From Pseudomonadales bacterium (GTDB lineage Bacteria; Pseudomonadota; Gammaproteobacteria; Pseudomonadales; Azotimanducaceae): DNA of 64,000 bases. Every line of letters starts with the position of its first letter. The first letter of the stretch is position 1. Shown here in pieces: positions 14,366 through 29,622 of the stretch. A program made the position numbers and the translations under genes. The stretch spans positions 1 to 64,000 of the forward strand of contig JANQKS010000078.1 in NCBI GenBank assembly GCA_028281005.1, read 5' to 3'. The notes below the pieces were generated by a model, which made no database searches, was not told where the DNA came from, and worked only from the letters and a program-made list of their open reading frames with translations.

Positions 14366-15133
14366 TTATGAATAGACCACGAGTCGATTAAGTTGTTGGT
14401 GACGCTCCACTCGCATGGGAGTGGCGTACGTCGCGGTTAATAGTTCGTCACGCAGCACCTCTTGCGGTGAACCCGCTCCGACCACTGTACCCGCTTTCAA
14501 CATCACCAGGCGATCAGCAAACCGGCTGGCCAGATTCAAGTCGTGCATAACAACAACCACGCCAATGTTACGCGCCGCGGCTTGGCGGGCAAGGTCCAAC
14601 ACCAAGAGTTCGTGCGCCACATCCAAACTTGACGTGGGTTCGTCCAGCAGCATATAGCGCGCCTGCTCAACTGGCGATAGCGGATCAATTTGCAACAGAG
14701 CTCGCGCAAACTGTACCCGCTGTTGTTCACCCCCAGATAGCGTATTAAAGCGACGGCCAAGCAAAGCTTCCAAGTCACAGACCTGCACTACCCAGGCAAA
14801 GCGCTCCTGCAATTCCACCCAACGGCCGATCCAGCCCATGGCGAGAATCTCATCCACGGTGAAATCAAATACAACCTGACTGTTTTGCGTCATCACGCAG
14901 CGCTGTCTGGCACGCTCGGCGAGACTCAGCTTAGCCAAGGCTTGCCCGTTAATCACCACGCTGCCGCTGACGGGATTCAACTCACCGCTTAGCAGCCGCA
15001 ACAACGTGGTTTTACCTGCGCCATTGGGGCCCACAATAGCCGTCAATTGGCCCGCATGGAACGTTGCGTCCACACCAGACACCACCTGCTTGCCGCGGTG
15101 CGCAAACTGCAGGGCTGTTGCCACCAAACTCAT
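14366..15133 (-). CDS. hmuV: Heme ABC transporter ATP-binding protein
   Basis: 255 aa from ATG 15133, which overlaps the hmuU stop (ATGA); the track's extra N-terminus is rejected. Walker A 'GPNGAGKTT', signature 'LSGGEQQRVQFARAL', Walker B 'MLLDEPTSSLD' and H-loop 'VVMHDLN' are intact. It energises inner-membrane heme import with HmuU and HmuT. Confidence 0.9.
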   Translation of the reverse strand: MSLVATALQFAHRGKQVVSGVDATFHAGQLTAIVGPNGAGKTTLLRLLSGELNPVSGSVVINGQALAKLSLAERARQRCVMTQNSQVVFDFTVDEILAMGWIGRWVELQERFAWVVQVCDLEALLGRRFNTLSGGEQQRVQFARALLQIDPLSPVEQARYMLLDEPTSSLDVAHELLVLDLARQAAARNIGVVVVMHDLNLASRFADRLVMLKAGTVVGAGSPQEVLRDELLTATYATPMRVERHQQLNRLVVYS

Positions 15134-16164
15134 ACCGGCCGCACGCGTGCAATCAGCCACAAAAAGAAAGGCGCGCCCAGCGCGCTGGTCACCAAGCTGA
15201 CAGGAATTTCAGCGGGAGAGACCACTGTGCGGGACACCAAGTCCGCCGCAACCATCAAGGCGGCGCCCAACAGGACCGCATTAGGTAGCAGGTACTTGTG
15301 CACGGGACCCAGCAACAAGCGCACCAGATGCGGCACCACCAGGCCAACAAAGCCGATAATACCCGACAAGGCAACCCCTGCCCCAACACCCGCGGCCGTA
15401 CACAGAATTACAACCCGTTTTAGACGCGCAACGTCTACTCCTAGAAAAGCAGCATCAGCCTCGCCAAGTTGCAACAAGTCCAAACCCCGCGCTTGACGCA
15501 ACAGAAACACCCCCGCGACCGTGATGATGGCAAAGGCTGGTAATACCGTTTGCCAACCCGCGCGGCCAAAACTCCCCATCATCCAGAACACCAACGTTCG
15601 CAATTGCGCATCGTCGCTTAAATACTGAAACGCTCCGATACCAACCGTGGCCAAGGCGTTAATCGCAATACCCACCAACAACAGCGTGACAATGCTGAAA
15701 TGCCCAAACCAAGCCGCGAAGGCGTAGAGAAATACCGTCACCAACAACGCGCCCGCCACTGCCGCTAACGGCAATGCATAGGGACGCACCGATTCCGGCA
15801 AAGACAGCGCATCGCCAATCACAATCATCGAAATTGCGCCTAAGGCGGCTCCGGCAGACACACCGATGAGACCAGGATCGGCGAGGGGATTGCGAAACAA
15901 ACCCTGCAGCGCCGCGCCCGCAACACCCAAAATGCCGCCGACAAAGGCGGCTAACAGCACTCGCGGTGCGCGTATTTCAGTGAATACGGTGCGTTCCAAA
16001 GTGCTGGCCTCACCAGACAACAGCGCCGGCAAAGGCACATGTATTGCCCCAAGGGAGAAGCCGACTAACAAAGTGCCGACAAACACCAGTGCCAGAATCC
16101 ACGTGCGGTTTGTCCGCACGCCCAACTCTACTCCCGCACCGGCCTGCAGAGTTTCGGTGTTCAT
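15130..16164 (-). CDS. hmuU: Heme ABC transporter permease (FecCD family)
   Basis: 344 aa, highly hydrophobic, with about ten helices and the FecCD-typical 'GVAGAALQGLFRNPLADPGLIGVSAGAALGA' region (quoted in part) and the 'GFVGLVVPHLVRLLLGP' loop that docks the ATPase. It overlaps hmuT at its start and hmuV at its stop by four bases each, indicating tight translational coupling. Works in heme or heme-siderophore uptake across the inner membrane. Confidence 0.9.
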   Translation of the reverse strand: MNTETLQAGAGVELGVRTNRTWILALVFVGTLLVGFSLGAIHVPLPALLSGEASTLERTVFTEIRAPRVLLAAFVGGILGVAGAALQGLFRNPLADPGLIGVSAGAALGAISMIVIGDALSLPESVRPYALPLAAVAGALLVTVFLYAFAAWFGHFSIVTLLLVGIAINALATVGIGAFQYLSDDAQLRTLVFWMMGSFGRAGWQTVLPAFAIITVAGVFLLRQARGLDLLQLGEADAAFLGVDVARLKRVVILCTAAGVGAGVALSGIIGFVGLVVPHLVRLLLGPVHKYLLPNAVLLGAALMVAADLVSRTVVSPAEIPVSLVTSALGAPFFLWLIARVRPV

Positions 16165-17030
16165 CCTTCCGCGGAGGGGAGTGTCCCGAGCTGCATGGCC
16201 AGATCCACGGCAGTCGCCAGCGTGCGGGGACCAAAACCGAGGAGCGACATACCGTCAAATACGATTAGAGCTTGTGAGCGACCGGCGTCCGTCAGGCGGA
16301 TACCCGGATGGCTAAGAACCTTATCTATACCGCCTGCTCCGTCTACCGCTCTTTGGGTCAGCACAAGGTACTCGGGATTTGATCGCGCCATGGCTTCCAG
16401 CGAAATTGGCTTCCAGCCCTCAAATCCGCCAAAAACGTTCTGCGCCCCAACCATGTCCAACATGTTCTGCGCCGACGTGTCGGCGCCGCCCCCAACCGGA
16501 CCCGCTTCACCCAGCGTGAGCAACACAGCCACCCGCGGGGCACGGTCTGTTTGCACCTGATTAAGTGCGTCCGCCTGCCCGGCCAAACGTGCCGCCAGCG
16601 CATCGGCAGCCGCTGTGGGCGCACCCATGACAGTTGCAACACAGTCAACTTTCGCGCGGATGTCTGCCGCAGTAAGGGATTGAGCCACGCGCACAACCTG
16701 TAGGCCGGCATTAGCAACCTGTGTCACCACTTCATCTGGACCCATGTCGTGCTCACCCATTAGCAGTGTGGGATCCAGTGACAGCAGCCCTTCTGCCGAC
16801 AGCGTGCGCACGTAGCCGATGGACGGCAGTTCGGTTGCAGCCGGTGGGTAGTTGGAGGTTCTATCAACCCCGACGACGCGATGTTCAATGCCGAGCTCGT
16901 ACGCAATTTCAGTCAACGACCCACCGGCAATGACAACGCGACTGGCGTCTTCAGCTGCATCGTCACACGCCCACGCCGGCAGGCCCAAGCCGAGCAACAC
17001 CAGCACGCTAAAACGCAATTTATGCATCAA
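16161..17030 (-). CDS. hmuT: Periplasmic heme-binding protein
   Basis: 289 aa with a signal peptide (MMHKLRFSVLVLLGLGLPAWA) and a class III periplasmic binding fold. 'VVIAGGSLTEIAYELG' and 'LPSIGYVRTLSAEGLLSL' are typical of HmuT/ShuT; the tyrosine in the GYVR motif is a plausible heme ligand. It overlaps both the receptor gene upstream and hmuU downstream, so the receptor and transporter are made as one translational unit. Confidence 0.9.
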   Translation of the reverse strand: MMHKLRFSVLVLLGLGLPAWACDDAAEDASRVVIAGGSLTEIAYELGIEHRVVGVDRTSNYPPAATELPSIGYVRTLSAEGLLSLDPTLLMGEHDMGPDEVVTQVANAGLQVVRVAQSLTAADIRAKVDCVATVMGAPTAAADALAARLAGQADALNQVQTDRAPRVAVLLTLGEAGPVGGGADTSAQNMLDMVGAQNVFGGFEGWKPISLEAMARSNPEYLVLTQRAVDGAGGIDKVLSHPGIRLTDAGRSQALIVFDGMSLLGFGPRTLATAVDLAMQLGTLPSAEG

Positions 17031-19291
17031 AATACCACGCGGATGCTGGCGCCCGCGTTAAAACCCGGTTGCGTGAAGCGTTCCGGCGCGTCACCTTGAA
17101 TCGCCACTGTGTCTGCCCAACGGGTGTACTCTTTGTCAGTCAAGTTAAACAAGCCAACGTTAACAGTTACGGTTTCTGAAAAATCGAAGTAGGCCAACAG
17201 ATCGATGATGCCGTAGCCGGAAGTTTGGGAGCGGGAACTCCCAACCGGAATATCTGAGTCATCCTTGCCTTCTACCAGTGTAAAAATCAGTTGCCCGCCC
17301 CAGTTGCGATTCGGCGCGTCGTACTGCAAACCAACAACACCGGTCAGCGGGTTGATGGATTCCAGCGGCTCATCCAGATCGGTGTCTTCACCGTCTGCAT
17401 ACGCAATGGCGTAACGAACACCAAAGTCCTGCAGAGCGTCGCCGAAGGCCGCCAATGGCATATATCCACCCAGTTCTACCCCTTCGATCTCCACTTCAGC
17501 ACGGTTTACAGACTGAAACACCGGCAAAAAATCTGCCGGGTCAATACCCACCAATGAGCGAGGATCGATAAAATCTTCGTACTCGTTACGGAACACCGTG
17601 AGGTTGTGGCTACCAAAGCGGCTATTCAAGCGGATACCAAACTCCACCCCCTGACTGGTTTCCGACTTGAGGTTTGGATTAGAAATGGCTTTGTAGCGCC
17701 CCGGATTAGTAAAGCCAATATTGACATCGTCATACGGTGGCGCGCGGAAACCTTCCGCATAACGCGCAAAACCGCTGACGTTATCCGTAAATTGGTATAC
17801 GGCTGAAAAGGCAAATGTGAGCTCGGCATCGTCATAGTCTTCTGGAAGCACGGTGCCTGGATTGCCCGCCAGATAAATGGCGTCAGCCTCGGTGTCCGCA
17901 TCGTAGTCGTCATAGCGCAGACCCGGAGTCAAGCGTAGACGCTCATCCATGAGCACTATTTCATCCTGAACAAAGTACGCCAAGTGATCAATTTCCGTCA
18001 TCGGAAAATCTCTGGTGGGTAACCCCTCCGGAATTGGCGTTCCGTCTAGCCTGAAACTACCCCCATCACGCAACGACACACTGTCGGTGGTGTAGTATTC
18101 GACCCCGTAGGTCAGACTGTGCGAGACACCCCCTGTCTTGAAGTCTGACCCCAACTGTAAATAAAAGCCGTCGATTTCCTGTTCAAACTCTGAATAACGA
18201 AAACGCGTGCGAGGGCCATCAAAGTAGGTTCTCAGATCCTCCGTGAGCTGGGCATTATCCGACTCTTGGTGGTAGACCCGGACGACGCCACGATCCAGCC
18301 AGTTGTCCCCGACCGAAGAGTACCGATACTCCAGCGCCCACTTTTGCCGTTCTCTTTCGTCTCGCGCATCAGAGGTATTGACGATAACAGGCGGACCGAA
18401 GGGGCTGACAATCACCGCCCCATAGTCTGAAAGGACTTGCGTGTCGATGTCGGTCTCAAAGCGATCGTAGGAGACGATGAATTTATGCGCTTCACCCGGC
18501 ATAAACACCAGTTTGGCCGAAACGTTATCCACCTCTATGTCTTGCGGATCAGCTTCTTGGCGGGCTGCGGCCACACCACCCGACGAACCGGAACTTTCCG
18601 TTTCTTCGCCATCTCGGTGGGTAAAGGTGAGCATTCCGGCAACCACATCATTGCCTGCCGCAACCGTGGCCGTGCCGACCATGGACGCATCATCACTGGA
18701 ATATCCGCCCTTGATGCTGGCATAGAACGGATCGTCGCTGGACACATAGCGCTCAGGTCCCTTGGTAGTGAACGACACCACGCCACCTAAGGCATCGCTG
18801 CCATATAGCGAAGACACCGGGCCGCGGGCAATTTCAACCATCTCCAAGCTATCGACGTCTACAAAGTCGCGGCGTGCGTTTAGGAAGGGGCCAAAGCTGA
18901 ACTCATCGGAGATGCGCACTCCATCGACAATCGTGAGTACGCGATCACCTTCAATACCGCGGATGTTGAACCCGCTCAAGCCAAAGCGGCTACCGGTACC
19001 ACTCACGCTGACCCCCGGCTCAAAGCGCACCAAGTCAGCAATATCACGGGTGATCTGGCGCTCCATCTCTTCTTCGTCAATGACAGAAATGGTCGCGCCC
19101 ACTTGATTAAGAGTACGTTCGGTTTTTGTGCCGATCACGGTAATAGTTTCTTCAATTTCTGCGTCGCTGCCCGCATCGGCAGCGGCATGCGCATGGATGG
19201 CAGAGGTCGCCCCGAGCAGGGCGATTGGTATCAAGCTTAGCTGTCGAAATATGACCACAACGCGACTCCTTTTCAAAAATGTCATGTTCAA
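17027..19291 (-). CDS. TonB-dependent receptor of the heme operon
   Basis: 754 aa outer-membrane beta-barrel with signal peptide, a TonB-box-like 'EETITVIG', a plug (residues about 55-175, 'FNIRGIEGDRVLTIVDGVRI') and a 22-strand barrel ending in a terminal aromatic (VVF). The FRAP and NPNL motifs of heme/hemoglobin receptors are present ('EGFRAPPYDD', 'SNPNLKSETSQG'), but the loop between them has tyrosine and no histidine. I see no histidine in the plug either. Its stop overlaps hmuT. A strong Fur palindrome sits about 55 bp upstream. Substrate likely heme, though siderophore use is possible. Confidence 0.85.
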   Translation of the reverse strand: MNMTFLKRSRVVVIFRQLSLIPIALLGATSAIHAHAAADAGSDAEIEETITVIGTKTERTLNQVGATISVIDEEEMERQITRDIADLVRFEPGVSVSGTGSRFGLSGFNIRGIEGDRVLTIVDGVRISDEFSFGPFLNARRDFVDVDSLEMVEIARGPVSSLYGSDALGGVVSFTTKGPERYVSSDDPFYASIKGGYSSDDASMVGTATVAAGNDVVAGMLTFTHRDGEETESSGSSGGVAAARQEADPQDIEVDNVSAKLVFMPGEAHKFIVSYDRFETDIDTQVLSDYGAVIVSPFGPPVIVNTSDARDERERQKWALEYRYSSVGDNWLDRGVVRVYHQESDNAQLTEDLRTYFDGPRTRFRYSEFEQEIDGFYLQLGSDFKTGGVSHSLTYGVEYYTTDSVSLRDGGSFRLDGTPIPEGLPTRDFPMTEIDHLAYFVQDEIVLMDERLRLTPGLRYDDYDADTEADAIYLAGNPGTVLPEDYDDAELTFAFSAVYQFTDNVSGFARYAEGFRAPPYDDVNIGFTNPGRYKAISNPNLKSETSQGVEFGIRLNSRFGSHNLTVFRNEYEDFIDPRSLVGIDPADFLPVFQSVNRAEVEIEGVELGGYMPLAAFGDALQDFGVRYAIAYADGEDTDLDEPLESINPLTGVVGLQYDAPNRNWGGQLIFTLVEGKDDSDIPVGSSRSQTSGYGIIDLLAYFDFSETVTVNVGLFNLTDKEYTRWADTVAIQGDAPERFTQPGFNAGASIRVVF

Positions 19292-19346: not shown

Positions 19347-19367
19347 TGATAATTGTTCTTATTATCA
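19347..19367. promoter_or_regulatory. Fur box upstream of the heme operon
   Basis: TGATAAT-TGTTCTT-ATTATCA is an exact inverted repeat with 7-bp arms, embedded in AT-rich sequence with further 'aatgat' half-sites (19326-19336). It is positioned 56 bp before the receptor start, over the expected promoter. The rest of 19292-19589 contains no gene I can support. Confidence 0.85.
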
Positions 19368-19589: not shown

Positions 19590-20483
19590 TCAGCGACTAA
19601 GGTTAAATGCAGCAACCTGAACCGCAGCGGCTGCGCCAAACAACTGCGCGGCATCACTCTCCACCGTGTCTGTTGGATTCAAGCTGGGCCACATCGGGTC
19701 TAATCCAGTGATAATGTCCTGTAATTGTCCGGCCACCGCCGCGGCACGCTCATCCTGTAGAAAAGCCTCAGATCGTGCCCAAACACCGGCAATCTGCGTA
19801 AAGCCCCAAGCGTCCTGATACTCGTGGAGGTTATTCACCGCGCCATCAACAATACCAATCTGGTATTCCACGCCGCCGGTGCGTAGCAAATTTTCTACAA
19901 CCTTGGCGATGACTTGCGGATCCTTTGTAGCAGCCCCACCTTCACACGCTGTGATCGCCGCCGTCAGTTCGGCATACACCGCCTCCACATCAGACTGGCT
20001 CTGACGTTCCACCACAGCTGCGGTCAGGGCACTGAGATTGTCGCCAAAGCCGCCACAGCCACGGGCTTCAAAGGCGGGCACCACCGACGAGTAGATTTCT
20101 TCCCGTGGATGCTTCATGTGAGTCTCTGCGAGCTCCGGAAGGTCTTGACGGTACAGTTCATATCCCACCGCGAGGTGACCACGTATAAGGCCAAGTTGTG
20201 TTAGGTAGGCGGCATCGTCGGTAGTCAAATCGGCGCCCGCAGTAGCGGCACCTTCGCCCTCGCCTTCTCCTCCACCACCTTCTCCTTCGCCACCTTCTCC
20301 TTCGCCGCCACTCATTGTGGGCACGGCCACCTCTTCCATTTCTGCCTCGGTTTGCGTTGCAGGCTCTGAGGTCTCCGCGCACCCAGAGAGTTGCGTGCTG
20401 ACCAACCAGGTAGCGGCTCCAATGGCGGTGACGGTGCGCCATTGAAAGCGCTTGTTGTCAGAGGAATGTATACTGTCGCTCAT
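19590..20483 (-). CDS. Putative lipoprotein with Gly-Glu repeats, divergent from PiuC
   Basis: 297 aa from ATG 20483, preceded by AGGA at suitable spacing; the track's longer start is rejected. An N-terminal helix ends in a lipobox-like 'STQLSGC', so it is probably a lipoprotein. A low-complexity GEGEGG linker (about residues 59-78) follows, then an alpha-helical domain of some 215 residues ('THMKHPREEIYSSVVPAFEA', 'EYQDAWGFTQIAGVWARSEA'). I do not firmly recognise the domain; the helical design vaguely recalls imelysin/EfeO-like proteins. Neighbours (heme receptor, PiuC, Fe(III) ABC) suggest an iron role. Its start codon overlaps that of piuC on the opposite strand. Confidence 0.75.
   Translation of the reverse strand: MSDSIHSSDNKRFQWRTVTAIGAATWLVSTQLSGCAETSEPATQTEAEMEEVAVPTMSGGEGEGGEGEGGGGEGEGEGAATAGADLTTDDAAYLTQLGLIRGHLAVGYELYRQDLPELAETHMKHPREEIYSSVVPAFEARGCGGFGDNLSALTAAVVERQSQSDVEAVYAELTAAITACEGGAATKDPQVIAKVVENLLRTGGVEYQIGIVDGAVNNLHEYQDAWGFTQIAGVWARSEAFLQDERAAAVAGQLQDIITGLDPMWPSLNPTDTVESDAAQLFGAAAAVQVAAFNLSR
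20251..20309 (-). repeat. In-frame Gly/Glu-coding microsatellite
   Basis: On the coding (minus) strand the unit GGCGAAGGAGAAGGT and variants repeat in tandem, encoding a GEGEGG linker in the lipoprotein. Such repeats can vary in length by slippage while staying in frame. Confidence 0.8.
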
Positions 20484-21147
20484 GATTGTTTTCCTAGAGA
20501 ACGTGTTAAGCCCAGACCATGTGGGCGCGTTTGTTAATATACTCGACGATGCCGAGCTGTTCGAGTCCGGCGCAATAACTGCCGGACGTACCGCCAAAGC
20601 GCATAAACAAAACCTGCAGGCATTGCATGCCAAACCCGAAGTTGAGCGCATTCTTAAGCAGGTGCGGGAAGACCTCACAAAACATAGCGTGTTTAGACAC
20701 TTTGCGATCCCCGCCAAGTTTGGCCGGGTCATGATCAGCCGCTACGAACCGGGCATGAAATACGGCAGCCATTTCGACGAGGCGTTTATTGACGGCGTGC
20801 GCACGGATCTTTCGTTTACTCTGTTTCTCTCCGACCCGGACACATACGTTGGCGGGGAATTGGAATTGACGACACCCTCCGGCAGTCAAGCCATCAAGCT
20901 GCCGCCGGGATGCGCCATCGTCTATCCCAGCGATCACTTGCACGCGGTCTTGCCAGTTACTGATGGCGTGCGTTTAGCCGTGGTCGGTTGGGTCCAGAGC
21001 CGCGTTCGCGCCAGCGCCCAACGCCAACTGCTGTATGAATTATATGAAGGCATCCGAGACGCCGAAGCAGCCCCTGGCAACGCAAAAGACGCCATTACAC
21101 GCCTGAAGCTGGTGCGCAACAACCTCATCAGAATGTGGGCCGATTGA
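20482..21147 (+). CDS. Fe(II)/2-oxoglutarate dioxygenase, PKHD type (PiuC/YbiX-like)
   Basis: 221 aa. 'MIVFLENVLSPDHVGAF' matches the usual PiuC N-terminus, which fixes the ATG at 20482. The iron-binding facial triad is visible as 'HFDEAF' (HxD) and the later His in 'YPSDHLHAVLPVT'; 'GVRLAVVGWVQS' carries the 2-oxoglutarate Arg. PiuC genes are Fur-regulated partners of TonB receptors for catecholate siderophores. The nearest purine-rich site (agagga) is 16 bp from the ATG, rather far; an in-frame CTG at 20470 would be better spaced. It shares the CATG start with the divergent lipoprotein gene. Confidence 0.85.
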   Translation: MIVFLENVLSPDHVGAFVNILDDAELFESGAITAGRTAKAHKQNLQALHAKPEVERILKQVREDLTKHSVFRHFAIPAKFGRVMISRYEPGMKYGSHFDEAFIDGVRTDLSFTLFLSDPDTYVGGELELTTPSGSQAIKLPPGCAIVYPSDHLHAVLPVTDGVRLAVVGWVQSRVRASAQRQLLYELYEGIRDAEAAPGNAKDAITRLKLVRNNLIRMWAD

Positions 21148-21204: not shown

Positions 21205-22281
21205 TCAGCGCCACCCGGCCTTGTCGTAGAGTCGTACCGCCTGGGCTTGATTGGTACCGAGCAAGGCCGCGTTGATCGAATCTTCCGTAAAGGTGCCCAA
21301 TTGTGTGATTGGACCAGTGGCCTCGCCAACCACGGGGTATTCGTTGTTGCCTTCGGCAAACAACTTTTGAGCAAACTCGCCGCTGAGATACTCAATGAAC
21401 TTGATGGCGTTGTCCCGGTTTGGTGCGTGCTTCGTCACTCCGGCACCACTGATGTTGATGTGGGTACCACGCCCGGATTGGTTGGGGAATATAATTTGAA
21501 GTGCATCTACGATGTCCTGCGCACCCGCATCGTCGCTGTTTAACCAACGCCCAATATAGTAAGTGTTAGCGATCGTGATGCCGCATTCGCCGGACGCCAC
21601 GGCGGCCAGGTTGCTGGTGTCATTTCCTTGTGCTGAACGCGCAAAATTTGCGACTACGCCGCTGGCCCAATCTTGCGCCGCCTGCTCGCCGTTGGCATCG
21701 ATGAGCGCCGCGAGCAGGGACAGGTTATAGATGTTGGACGAACTCCGCATACAGACCATGCCGCGCAATGCAGGATCGGACAATTGTTCGTAATCGGTTA
21801 GCTCAATGGGTAGTTCTTTGTCACGCTGGTGCACAATTACGCGCGCACGTTTTGACAAGCCGAACCAATGACCTTCCGGTTCGCGTAGGTGCTCAGGTAC
21901 ACGTTCGTTTAAAAGTTGCGACTCCACCGGCTGAAAAATCCCCTTGGACTGAGCCCGCCACAGCCGCCCGGCATCCACCGTGATCAATACATCAGCGGGC
22001 GTGTATTGACCTTCGTTAACGATGCGTTCAATCAAGGCGTCGCTGCCGCCTTCAATGAGGTTGACTTGAATGCCGGTCTGTTCGGTAAATTCATCGTACA
22101 GAGCAATATCAGTGTCGTAGTGACGCGCGGAGTAGACATTGACCTGCTGCGCGGACACAGCGGTGCTCACGAACGTTGTAAGCACCAACACGGCTACCCC
22201 CATCGTTCGGCCAAGATTTGCGCTGGTCATTTTTGCGCCGGTCATTATTGGGAGTCTGTTTTGCTTCAGATACTGCTTCAT
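21205..22281 (-). CDS. fbpA: Fe(III) ABC transporter periplasmic binding protein
   Basis: Up to 358 aa; the signal peptide may begin at Met13 or Met18 (helix TMGVAVLVLTTFVSTAVSA). The mature start 'QQVNVYSARHYDTDIALYDE' and the adjacent tyrosines in 'ANTYYIGRWL', which bind ferric iron in FbpA/FutA proteins, support the call. It has its own upstream Fur palindrome (22339-22353), separating it from fbpC, although both genes run in the same direction. Confidence 0.9.
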   Translation of the reverse strand: MKQYLKQNRLPIMTGAKMTSANLGRTMGVAVLVLTTFVSTAVSAQQVNVYSARHYDTDIALYDEFTEQTGIQVNLIEGGSDALIERIVNEGQYTPADVLITVDAGRLWRAQSKGIFQPVESQLLNERVPEHLREPEGHWFGLSKRARVIVHQRDKELPIELTDYEQLSDPALRGMVCMRSSSNIYNLSLLAALIDANGEQAAQDWASGVVANFARSAQGNDTSNLAAVASGECGITIANTYYIGRWLNSDDAGAQDIVDALQIIFPNQSGRGTHINISGAGVTKHAPNRDNAIKFIEYLSGEFAQKLFAEGNNEYPVVGEATGPITQLGTFTEDSINAALLGTNQAQAVRLYDKAGWR

Positions 22282-22338: not shown

Positions 22339-22353
22339 TGAGAATCATTCTCA
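22339..22353. promoter_or_regulatory. Fur box, perfect 7-1-7 palindrome, upstream of fbpA
   Basis: TGAGAATCATTCTCA is an exact inverted repeat directly abutting the fbpC stop codon and 57 bp before the fbpA ORF. It suggests an independent iron-repressed promoter for the binding protein. Confidence 0.85.
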
Positions 22354-23400
22354 TCAACCCGATGGGCGAACGTACACCAGTAGGCCGGCTGAGTCAAAAC
22401 TTGCCTGCACATGTGTGCCTATCGCCAGATTTGGGGCATCCGCTAAGTCGACGCGCAAGCGCTCACCTTGGGCCTGCAGCACCACCAGGTAGCGGCCACC
22501 AAGGAAGCGGATATCTTCTACCAGAATTCCAGCGTCCGGCCGCTCGGTGAGGGTCACAGAATGACGGCGCACAATAACGTCATAAACGGTCTCGTCGAGC
22601 GGTACGGGCACGGTGGGACTGATAGGGCCAAAGGCCGTGACGATCTCACCCGCCTGTGCTCGACCGACTATCGCATCGGTTCCCCCGAACAATTCGGCGA
22701 CAAACCGATTCACCGGGTGTCGCCAGACTTCCCCAGGCGTACCGAGCTGTACAATTTTGCCGGCATCGATCACCGCGATGCGATCAGCGAGTTCCATCGC
22801 CTCTTCTGCATCGTGCGTTACGACAATGGCCGGGATACCCGCAGTACGCAAGGCGCGCCGGGTTTCTTCGCGCAGTTGCCGTCGCAGCGTGCTATCGACA
22901 CTGGCAAACGGTTCGTCGAGTAACATCAGACGTGGCTGCGGCGCCAACGCGCGCGCCAACGCTACACGCTGCTGCTGACCGCCAGACAGCGTGTGCGGAT
23001 AGCGTTTGGCAAAACTCGCCAAGCCGACCGCCTGCAGTTGTTGCTGCACACGAACATCACGCTCTGTGCTAGGTAATTCGTTTAAGCCGAAGCCAATATT
23101 GTCGGCCACCGACAGGTGCGGGAATAAAACATGGTCTTGAAACACTAAGCCAAAGCACCGCTGTTCCGCTGGAGGCTCGTCTCCCGGCGTAGCCAAAGCA
23201 TCCCCGGCAAACAACACTCTGCCCTGTTGCAAAGGTTCTAATCCCGCCACGACCCGCAACAATGTGCTTTTGCCGCTGCCGGAAGCACCCAACAGGCAAA
23301 GGATCTCACCGTCGTCAACAGACAGATCGACACCATCAAGCACCACGGTACCGTCAAATTGGTGATGGACTGCTTCGAGCTCTAGCATGGTAACTGACAA
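22354..23400 (-). CDS. fbpC: Fe(III) ABC transporter ATP-binding protein
   Basis: 348 aa; the likely start is Met5 (MLELEAVHHQF). Walker A 'GASGSGKSTL', signature 'LSGGQQQRVALARAL', Walker B 'MLLDEPFASVD', then a C-terminal TOBE-type regulatory domain (residues about 240-345). It is divergent from the permease gene with a 51-bp gap, and upstream of fbpA in the same direction. It powers ferric iron import. Confidence 0.9.
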   Translation of the reverse strand: MSVTMLELEAVHHQFDGTVVLDGVDLSVDDGEILCLLGASGSGKSTLLRVVAGLEPLQQGRVLFAGDALATPGDEPPAEQRCFGLVFQDHVLFPHLSVADNIGFGLNELPSTERDVRVQQQLQAVGLASFAKRYPHTLSGGQQQRVALARALAPQPRLMLLDEPFASVDSTLRRQLREETRRALRTAGIPAIVVTHDAEEAMELADRIAVIDAGKIVQLGTPGEVWRHPVNRFVAELFGGTDAIVGRAQAGEIVTAFGPISPTVPVPLDETVYDVIVRRHSVTLTERPDAGILVEDIRFLGGRYLVVLQAQGERLRVDLADAPNLAIGTHVQASFDSAGLLVYVRPSG

Positions 23401-23451: not shown

Positions 23452-25131
23452 ATGACAACCGGCGCAACGTTTAGTACGCAAAACAAATCCAGGCACAGCA
23501 GATGGCCATCCATCTGGACTTGGGGCGCTACGGCTATCGCGCTACCCGTGGCTGTCCCCATCATCACCATACTGCTGACTTTTTTCAGCCCAACCAGCGA
23601 GGTTTGGCAACACCTGCGCGATTCGGTGTTGTTGGAATACATCGGCAACACGGTGTTGCTGCTGCTGTCCGTAGCAGTGCTGGTTGCCTTAATTGGTATC
23701 AGCAGCGCTTGGTTGGTGGCCACCAAGGATTTCCCCGGGCGGACACTGTTCAGCTGGGCATTGATCGCCCCTATTGCAACCCCCGCGTACGTGGTGGCTT
23801 ACGCCTATGCCGACCTGCTGTCCTTTACCGGTCCGTTGCAAAGCCTATTACGCGAGTGGGGCCTGTTAGAGAGCGCTCTACCTTCCATTCGCTCCTTACC
23901 GGGCGCAGCCTTTGTCCTAGGGCTCACGCTTTACCCGTACGTTTACTTGTTTGCATTTAATGCGTTCAGCGAACAGGCCCGCCCCCTGACAGAAGCCGCT
24001 CGCAGCCTGGGCGCCGGACCACACCGCGCCTTTTTTCAAATTGCGCTACCCCATGCACGGCCTGCTATCGCCGGCGGTATCGCGCTTGCGCTGATGGAAA
24101 CCGCCGCCGATTTCGGTGTGGTGGATTTTTTTGGCGTACCCACGCTAACGAACGGCATCTTCCGCACTTGGTACGCCCAAGGTGAACACCAAGCAGCCAT
24201 GCAACTGGCGGCATGGTTGTTTGTGGTGGTCGCCGCACTGGTGGTGTTCGAACAACTGGCGCGCCGAGGTTCCCACGCTAACCCCGTGTCCCGCAACGCC
24301 GCAGCCACCCGCGTTCGCCAACGCGGCGCGTCCGGATTGGTATCTTCACTGGTCTGTCTCATTCCCATCACTTTCGGGTTTTTAGTACCCGGCGCGGTTT
24401 TGTTGGATCACACCCTCAATGTGGGGGATCCCATGCTGGGACGGCAATTCACAGACTATTTAGGAAACAGTTTGACGGTTGCCGGTTGTGCCGCGCTAAT
24501 AGCGGCTGGTTGTGGGGTTTGGCTCACCTATGCGGTGCGCTTACATGGCGCATCGGCAAGCCGGGGGCTGCTCACCGTCAGCGTACGCGTAGCAACCCTG
24601 GGTTACGCCATCCCCGGCATGGTGCTGGCTGTGGGTTTAATCGGACCGCTCACCAGCTTAGATAAGTGGTTGGCGGAAACCATTAATCCAGCCTTGGGAT
24701 TGCCCCGCGGGCTGTTGATTACCGGGTCGATCGCAGCCCTCATATTTGTATATTTGGCTCGTTTTCTCACAGTGGCGTACAACAGCTGTGAAGGCGGCAT
24801 GGCACGCATACACCGCCACTACGACGATGCCGCGCGAAGTCTAGGCGCCGGTCCGTTTAGTCTATTGTCCAAAATTCACTTACCTATCATGACACCTGCT
24901 GTGCTGACCGCGGCATTATTGGTATTTGTGGATGTGGTCAAGGAACTGCCGGCCACACTCATCCTGCGGCCTTTTAACTTTGAGACGCTGGCGACACGCA
25001 CCTATCGGCTGGCTTCTGACGAACGCATCGCCGAAGCTTCAACGGCTGCGTTGATGATCGTTGCTGTCGGATTGTTACCTGCTGCTCTCATCGCCTGGCA
25101 AAACTTCAGCCACACGGCAGCTCGGCGCTAG
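23452..25131 (+). CDS. fbpB: Fe(III) ABC transporter permease, fused two-domain type
   Basis: 559 aa with about 12 helices arranged as two BPD_transp_1 domains. Each has an EAA loop: 'EAARSLGAGPHRAFFQIALP' and 'DAARSLGAGPFSLLSKIHLP'. This is the usual FbpB/SfuB architecture. It is transcribed divergently from fbpC, whereas most fbp loci are co-directional A-B-C. Confidence 0.9.
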   Translation: MTTGATFSTQNKSRHSRWPSIWTWGATAIALPVAVPIITILLTFFSPTSEVWQHLRDSVLLEYIGNTVLLLLSVAVLVALIGISSAWLVATKDFPGRTLFSWALIAPIATPAYVVAYAYADLLSFTGPLQSLLREWGLLESALPSIRSLPGAAFVLGLTLYPYVYLFAFNAFSEQARPLTEAARSLGAGPHRAFFQIALPHARPAIAGGIALALMETAADFGVVDFFGVPTLTNGIFRTWYAQGEHQAAMQLAAWLFVVVAALVVFEQLARRGSHANPVSRNAAATRVRQRGASGLVSSLVCLIPITFGFLVPGAVLLDHTLNVGDPMLGRQFTDYLGNSLTVAGCAALIAAGCGVWLTYAVRLHGASASRGLLTVSVRVATLGYAIPGMVLAVGLIGPLTSLDKWLAETINPALGLPRGLLITGSIAALIFVYLARFLTVAYNSCEGGMARIHRHYDDAARSLGAGPFSLLSKIHLPIMTPAVLTAALLVFVDVVKELPATLILRPFNFETLATRTYRLASDERIAEASTAALMIVAVGLLPAALIAWQNFSHTAARR

Positions 25132-28329: not shown

Positions 28330-29565
28330 TCATGCGAACGATTCGCGCAGCAAGCGTCGATTCTGCAATAGCCAAATGCCAATCAGCGCAGCAGCCGTAC
28401 ATGCCGCCGCCGTTGCAAGAATGGCGGCATAGCTGCGGTCAAACTCGTAGATGGTCGTTGCGCTCACCGGCCCGATGACAAACCCGGCCGACATCGTGGC
28501 TTGCATAATGCCTGCCACCCGGCCTTGTTCCTCGCTACCGGCCAGCAACGAAGCCGCTGACATCAAACCCGGAGTGGCAAGTCCAAAACCTATACCCATC
28601 ACCGCCGCGGCAAATAACAATCCGGCAAATCCGCTGGCAGTGCTGTAGATCACAAACCCAGCCACTACCAGCGGCAAACCAATTTGCAGCAGTGTGATTG
28701 GCGAGGGCTTAAACACCTGAATCACACCACCTTGCATTGCCAGCGTGGCGATGGCAATGGTCATGAAGCAAAAGCCCGTCAAACGTGCAGATTCGGCTAC
28801 ATCAGTCTGCAGTAAATCCTGCAAGTTAAACGCCAATGTTTGTTGAACTGCGGACATCGCGGTGTAGATCATCAATGTCCCAAGCAACAACAGCAACAGC
28901 GTTGCAATCGGTAAAGGTGGTTTAGCGGCTGCCGCGTCATTTACGGCACGCCTAGTTTGTTTAGGTAGGTAGATTGCCGCGAGCAGAGCGCCCAATAAAC
29001 CCAACCCAGCTATCGCATACAGCGGCGTCAACACGCCAAATCCAACCAACAAGGCGGCAGAAGCAGGCCCCAACACCATGCCGATGCCAAACGCCGCACC
29101 TACCACGGCTACCGCCGAAGAACGTTCAGCCTCGCTGGATACATCGGCCATCAAAGCCACAGAGGCCGGCTGAATTCCAGCCCCCAATGCAGCGTACAAG
29201 AGGCGCAGCACTAACAAAGTGAGAAACACAGCGCCTACCGCTAATTGCTGGGTTAACCCTAGCTGCATCACCCAAGCAAATAGCAAGCTGATCACACCAT
29301 AAGTAGTTAAGCCAAATACAATCGTCTGTTTCCTACCCCAGCGGTCTGAAACGCGCCCCCAGATGCCGGAGGAGAAGACAAAAATCACGGCAGCAGCGGA
29401 AATGATGATGCCAAGTTGGGATTCGCTCATCCCAATATCCCGGAAGACGGGACCGGCAATGGCAAACAACACCGTTTGCCCCATCGAATAGGCAATGAGT
29501 CCCGGCACCAGGACGGCCACCAGAGTTTTACGGCTGACGCCGCTGTGCAATATTTGTTCAGTCAT
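28330..29565 (-). CDS. MFS transporter, Fur-controlled
   Basis: 411 aa with 12 hydrophobic helices and the MFS loop motif 'GVWGRVSDRWGRK'-like sequence (here 'GIWGRVSDRWGRKQTIVFG'). The start follows a GGGAGG site. A perfect Fur palindrome lies 43 bp upstream, so expression is expected under iron starvation. Siderophore or xenosiderophore export/import is a reasonable inference, but the substrate cannot be read from the sequence. Confidence 0.85.
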   Translation of the reverse strand: MTEQILHSGVSRKTLVAVLVPGLIAYSMGQTVLFAIAGPVFRDIGMSESQLGIIISAAAVIFVFSSGIWGRVSDRWGRKQTIVFGLTTYGVISLLFAWVMQLGLTQQLAVGAVFLTLLVLRLLYAALGAGIQPASVALMADVSSEAERSSAVAVVGAAFGIGMVLGPASAALLVGFGVLTPLYAIAGLGLLGALLAAIYLPKQTRRAVNDAAAAKPPLPIATLLLLLLGTLMIYTAMSAVQQTLAFNLQDLLQTDVAESARLTGFCFMTIAIATLAMQGGVIQVFKPSPITLLQIGLPLVVAGFVIYSTASGFAGLLFAAAVMGIGFGLATPGLMSAASLLAGSEEQGRVAGIMQATMSAGFVIGPVSATTIYEFDRSYAAILATAAACTAAALIGIWLLQNRRLLRESFA

Positions 29566-29607: not shown

Positions 29608-29622
29608 TGAGAATCATTCTCA
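29608..29622. promoter_or_regulatory. Fur box, perfect 7-1-7 palindrome, upstream of MFS gene
   Basis: TGAGAATCATTCTCA, identical to the fbpA operator, placed 43 bp before the MFS start codon. Confidence 0.9.

Follow-up and report, generated by a model that had tools for sequence, protein, structure and literature searches.

A gene of the Pseudomonadales bacterium studied here (Azotimanducaceae; GCA_028281005.1) lies between a TonB-dependent receptor of a haem-type operon and the piuC and fbp genes, and encodes a lipoprotein with a Gly/Glu-rich linker. What is this protein, and what might it do among so many iron genes? To answer this, we analyzed the 64,000 nucleotides at positions 1 to 64,000 of contig JANQKS010000078.1 (hereafter the window) together with homologues from other genomes.

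An uncatalogued family of lipid-anchored helical proteins

The gene starts with an ATG at 20481-20483 and is present as a single copy in its own genome. A sequence-only reading had described a lipobox, an acidic Gly/Glu linker of variable-looking length and a helical domain, and all three were recovered (Table 1). The lipobox LSGC places Cys35 directly after the signal peptide, as in bacterial lipoproteins; the signal peptide contains a leader motif, F-Q-W, and a lipobox-like site was found in 37 of 66 relatives. Another acidic stretch lies between the lipobox and the domain. The linker itself is encoded in the window by a tandem DNA repeat with 15/27-bp units, and the Gly/Glu tract differs widely among relatives, from none at all to many tandem copies. 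The domain was modelled confidently by AlphaFold2 (pLDDT 94.6, pTM 0.92) and is predicted to be all-helical except for one small hairpin.

Table 1. Positions of the lipoprotein gene, its parts and the neighbouring features in the window
Feature	Position	Strand	Basis
Lipoprotein gene, 297 aa, undescribed family	19590..20483	-	ORF and homologues; no Pfam/NCBIfam match
Signal peptide aa 1-34, lipobox LSGC (aa 32-35), Cys35	20379..20483	-	sequence
Gly/Glu repeat linker aa 59-78, GGEGEGGEGEGGGGEGEGEG	20250..20309	-	sequence
Helical domain aa 84-297 (214 aa)	19593..20234	-	AlphaFold2 model m007349e53160
Motif 1 GHLxVG...THxKHPxxExY (H103, H122, H125, E129), proposed metal ligands	20091..20177	-	conservation, 61 sequences
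Motif 2 EYxIGIVDGxxxNxHEYQDAxGF (E206, E221, D224), proposed metal ligands	19800..19868	-	conservation, 61 sequences
C-terminal half, homologous to cytochrome c-FTR1 permease N-terminal periplasmic domain	19593..19934	-	hhalign
piuC, Fe(II)/2-oxoglutarate PKHD-type hydroxylase	20482..21147	+	PF13640, PF18331; alignment of PiuC starts
fbpA-like periplasmic iron-binding protein	21205..22281	-	PF13343
fbpC-like ABC ATPase	22354..23400	-	PF00005
fbpB-like fused permease	23452..25131	+	PF00528, two stretches
TonB-dependent receptor of haem-type operon	17027..19291	-	PF00593, PF07715
HutBCD-like haem ABC transporter genes	14366..17030	-	PF01497, PF01032, PF00005
Fur-box-like palindrome TGAGAATCATTCTCA upstream of fbpA	22339..22353	+	0 mismatches
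Fur-box-like site GATAATTGTTCTTATTATC upstream of TonB receptor	19348..19366	+	both six-base arms perfect

Pfam and NCBIfam scans of the window protein, its relatives and the whole alignments returned nothing above chance, in agreement with the earlier description of a protein of unknown type, and searches of PDB sequences with the family gave chance matches only. Judged by sequence, the window lipoprotein is a member of an undescribed family of Pseudomonadota that is found in Deinococcus too. With the window's own genome counted each time, homologues occur in 47 of the 201 genomes from the same taxonomic family, and in samples from the order and the phylum they occur in 17 of 295 and 6 of 349 genomes, respectively; some members are carried on plasmids, in Roseovarius, Indioceanicola and Deinococcus. 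H103, H125, P126 and E129 are invariant in all 61 aligned sequences, H122 is kept in 58, E206 in 59, E221 in 58 and D224 in 60, and L117-L119, which have lost ligands, rank with the most divergent sequences. Given the 47 of 201 genomes and the seven near-invariant polar residues, the observation is more than chance: the family of iron-locus lipoproteins is real, widespread and uncatalogued.

Relationship to the FTR1 periplasmic domain and to M75 proteins

In hhalign, the C-terminal half of the lipoprotein aligned with the N-terminal periplasmic domain of cytochrome c-FTR1 permeases at a probability of 90.7 and an E of 1.3e-6 in local mode and at an E of 3.5e-6 over 83 columns in global mode, the runs together spanning probabilities of 83-91% and E of 1e-6 to 1e-5. 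The score was 38, whereas none of 41 unrelated control families exceeded 18.3 and none of 60 column shuffles exceeded 17.5, and a second comparison method produced the same alignment (E 7e-5 for A1, 2.7e-6 for A2). These profile comparisons firmly link the C-terminal half, as a homologue, to the permease domain. Motif 2 falls in the homologous portion. Because a helix-[E/D]Y-V.DG hairpin-EY-helix module of about 83 columns is common to both, FTR1 has acidic residues at the positions of E206, E221 and D224 as well. In the permeases, however, cytochrome c and FTR1 are joined to the module, which comes without the His motif, whereas in the lipoprotein it makes up the C-terminal half of a free-standing protein. 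Pfam and NCBIfam name solely the cytochrome and FTR1 parts of these permeases, and the N-terminal domain (L169, L170, L172) matched no model of either collection in the one protein scanned. The lipoprotein is thus a relative of this unnamed domain that exists on its own and offers specific residues as candidate ligands. In the Deinococcus member (L152:7923-8924, + strand), a C-terminal extension looks, by eye, like the AYLEGFE-type stretch ahead of the membrane part of FTR1 in fused permeases.

EfeO, EfeM and Algp7 (Peptidase_M75, PF09375) are likewise all-helical, periplasmic and encoded in iron loci, and the imelysin/EfeO/M75 families had been suggested for comparison from the sequence alone. 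That comparison did not yield a match: run locally, globally and by halves, hhalign gave probabilities of at most 1.5% against the EfeO, ICMP and IrpA sets. PF09375 matched neither the window protein nor a single family member in sets of 41 and 39. GxHxxE, the defining motif of M75 (PMC3143127), is absent from the family alignment, where the invariant histidines lie instead within GHL and HxKHPxxE; the GEEDRY loop of EfeO, EfeM and Algp7 is missing as well.

A second confident AlphaFold model was obtained from a member 27% identical to the window protein, and among 350,542 PDB chains Foldseek ranked Algp7 first and second, EfeM fourth and EfeO fifth and tenth for this model, so that these proteins account for five of the top ten matches; for the first model, EfeO and Algp7 appeared within the top 20 (ranks 4, 14 and 20). 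With an E of 0.27-1.2, none below 0.1, and a TM of about 0.3, this likeness of fold is suggestive only, and it hints at a common topology rather than membership. The number and order of helices, as read from the model, also resemble the eight-helix M75 domain, and the Deinococcus member has an FTR1 neighbour. It is therefore possible, though somewhat doubtful, that the lipoprotein is a highly diverged M75 protein of the EfeO/EfeM kind that does the job of EfeO for FbpABC; the profile probabilities, the missing GxHxxE and PF09375 matches and the insignificant Foldseek values all speak against it. We rejected filing the family under M75, since GxHxxE is absent and neither the Foldseek nor the profile matches are significant. 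The ferritin-like top match of the first Foldseek run (TM 0.2) was not considered credible.

Iron genes around the family and the proposed role

Pfam matches in the window bore out the placement read from the sequence, with the TonB receptor and HutBCD-like genes on one side of the lipoprotein gene and PiuC and the fbp genes on the other. The palindrome upstream of fbpA would be matched by chance 0.06 times at up to two mismatches, and directly upstream of the lipoprotein gene no Fur box above chance was found. The genome of the window encodes no M75 protein and no FTR1. The genes piuC (+) and the lipoprotein gene (-) begin head to head, with their ATGs overlapping in a CATG at 20481-20484, and a near-zero gap between the two recurs in close relatives. 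Both fbpC and fbpA lie upstream on the strand of the lipoprotein gene, and the latter may be transcribed through the antisense piuC, as in a non-contiguous operon. Fur-box-like palindromes were also seen farther away, one (TGAGAATCATTCTCA, 29608-29622) upstream of a gene for an MFS transporter (28330-29565, - strand) with a beta-lactamase-fold gene after it, and one (TGATAATAATTATCA, 2375-2389) upstream of a gene for a sigma-70-family factor (1483-2052, - strand).

Among relatives, an iron-system gene lies within about 10 kb at 53 of 66 family loci, a count that takes in near-identical loci such as L105-L107. The most frequent neighbour is fbpA, present at 33 of the 66 loci; its usual distance to the domain match is 84-336 bp, and it is on the same strand wherever both genes were called and directly upstream in many relatives. 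At 20 of the 66 loci piuC is found 21-726 bp away, with Fur-type boxes between it and the family gene in several relatives; PiuC is under Fur control in Caulobacter (PMC3751524). A TonB receptor/Hut haem operon adjoins the family gene at a few loci. On the more distant branches, the gene precedes a PiuC-type 'Fe2+-dependent dioxygenase' in a PiuC operon (Roseovarius), a MauG-type di-haem peroxidase (Indioceanicola) or, directly and in one genome, an FTR1 permease (Deinococcus). Of the 13 loci with no listed iron gene, four can be accounted for: a piuC remnant is found at L036, which sits on the edge of its contig, a TonB receptor lies upstream of the gene at L110, and the genomes of L118 and L119 carry piuC elsewhere. 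Nine loci (L066-L071, L076, L062, L079), mostly of small-genome relatives, have no iron gene nearby. These neighbours connect an uncatalogued protein family with FbpABC, haem and FTR1 iron systems; the persistence of the link across genera and several kinds of iron system supports the earlier suggestion of a periplasmic protein related to iron or siderophores.

Is the association with iron genes accidental? The nine loci would fit a structural or regulatory lipoprotein that sits in iron loci by chance. Yet divergent members lie beside several unrelated iron systems and have homology to the FTR1 domain, which makes coincidence very improbable. Instead, we consider it probable that this exported, lipid-anchored periplasmic protein handles iron, first binding it at its His/carboxylate cluster and then delivering it to the local import system. 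In the helical domain, H103, H122, H125, E129, E206, E221 and D224 would bind iron, the His-rich half (H103, H122, H125, E129) and the acidic half (E206, E221, D224) forming one site. The iron would then be handed to the periplasmic acceptor of the importer encoded nearby, which would be FbpA of FbpABC in the window, the FTR1 permease in Deinococcus and a haem/iron ABC system in other members. The flexible Gly/Glu linker would let the domain reach out from the membrane and may itself act as an acidic iron trap. What the analysis shows directly is the export signal, the conserved ligand-like residues, the setting among iron genes and the homology to the FTR1 domain; metal binding, the identity of the metal, the single site and the direction of transfer we infer. 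The proposed role is close to that proposed for EfeO/EfeM with EfeU (PMC9174327).

The ligand might also be haem. The TonB receptor-HutBCD operon adjoins the gene in the window, some relatives carry it as the last gene of a TBDR-HutBCD-ABM operon, and the conserved histidines could serve as axial ligands, as would suit a haem-binding lipoprotein serving that operon. However, most relatives have FbpABC or PiuC and no haem genes, and the carboxylate-rich conserved set suits iron ions better, which renders haem binding improbable.

The iron-handling protein proposed here also differs from known periplasmic partners. FbpA/FutA-type proteins, the partners of FbpBC, are encoded immediately upstream in many relatives, match solute-binding-protein models and have an unrelated fold; the lipoprotein is an addition to them, not a replacement. 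The FtrABCD/P19 systems, too, pair a periplasmic iron protein with an FTR1-type permease, an arrangement comparable to the Deinococcus case; the family matches no P19-type Pfam model.

The Gly-Glu repeat and PiuC

Tandem GE/GGE repeats were found in 24 of 25 members with PiuC and in 1 of 39 without, PiuC having been scored genome-wide for 61 members and by adjacency for three more (Fisher p 2.4e-15, descent ignored). On the domain tree there are six or more gains or losses of PiuC and eight or more of the repeat. In independent pairs, the repeat and PiuC shift together and never in opposite directions; on well-supported branches there are three such pairs only (p 0.25), and we therefore do not treat the linkage as proven. 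Members of a PiuC-less genus (g33) mostly retain vestiges of the repeat (VEGEG, VEGKG), and their close sisters with PiuC have long repeats. The association also holds in two genomes (G549, G682) where piuC sits elsewhere in the genome, and a genome-wide search of G549 for Gly-Glu repeats turned up a second family member there, a decayed paralogue that has kept the repeat and lost the ligands. A literature search gave no account of such a Gly-Glu repeat in bacteria.

We know of no substrate for PiuC, CciO or YbiX. The PiuC homologue CciO is described as having no known substrate, and a cell-tethered iron chelator has been proposed for it (PMC12004947). Together with the tie between PiuC and the repeat, this led us to hypothesize that the lipoprotein is a substrate of PiuC: residues of the Gly-Glu repeat would be hydroxylated in the cytoplasm before export, giving a cell-tethered peptide iron chelator that would load the helical domain and FbpA. 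This reading supplements the iron-handling explanation and does not exclude it. The near-complete co-occurrence, the same-direction changes in independent pairs, the vestiges in g33 beside sisters with long repeats, the persistence of the association with distant piuC, the decayed paralogue that keeps its repeat and the CciO proposal all point toward it. On the other hand, PiuC, YbiX and CciO are common beside TonB receptors where the lipoprotein family is not known, the independent pairs on well-supported branches are few, and co-inheritance of a cassette could yield part of the pattern. Moreover, we know of no precedent for hydroxylation of Glu or Gly by this enzyme family. Weighing these points, we regard PiuC modification of the repeat as tentative and on balance unlikely. 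Similarly unlikely is its fuller form, in which translation and PiuC hydroxylation would yield a membrane-tethered ribosomal peptide that serves as a cell-bound 'siderophore' and supplies iron first to the His/carboxylate domain and then to FbpABC.

The tie between repeat and PiuC was unexpected and is testable, and it provides a concrete candidate substrate for PiuC/CciO/YbiX; a PiuC-modified iron-binding tether is offered as a testable idea. Like the cciT-cciO pair, in which the hydroxylase accompanies a TonB receptor (PMC12004947), PiuC of the window lies in an iron locus, but it is paired with a Gly/Glu-repeat lipoprotein and FbpABC. The piuC gene is described as mutated in some cefiderocol-resistant isolates (PMC11878004).

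Several minor features of the leaders and linkers were also recorded. A K/R/F-x-W motif (KLW, KRW, FRW) is present in the n-region of the leader in 21 of 25 members with PiuC and in 10 of 42 other members, and is possibly a recognition element. The decayed paralogue of G549 (L241:1351-2148, + strand) carries GGEGGEAGE and GGEMGEGEGGEG linkers, in a genome with two PiuC genes. At L110 (genome G357), which is without PiuC, the Gly/Glu linker is replaced by a His-rich one, DHSADHSVGHGAEHASAGAASHDMATHE.
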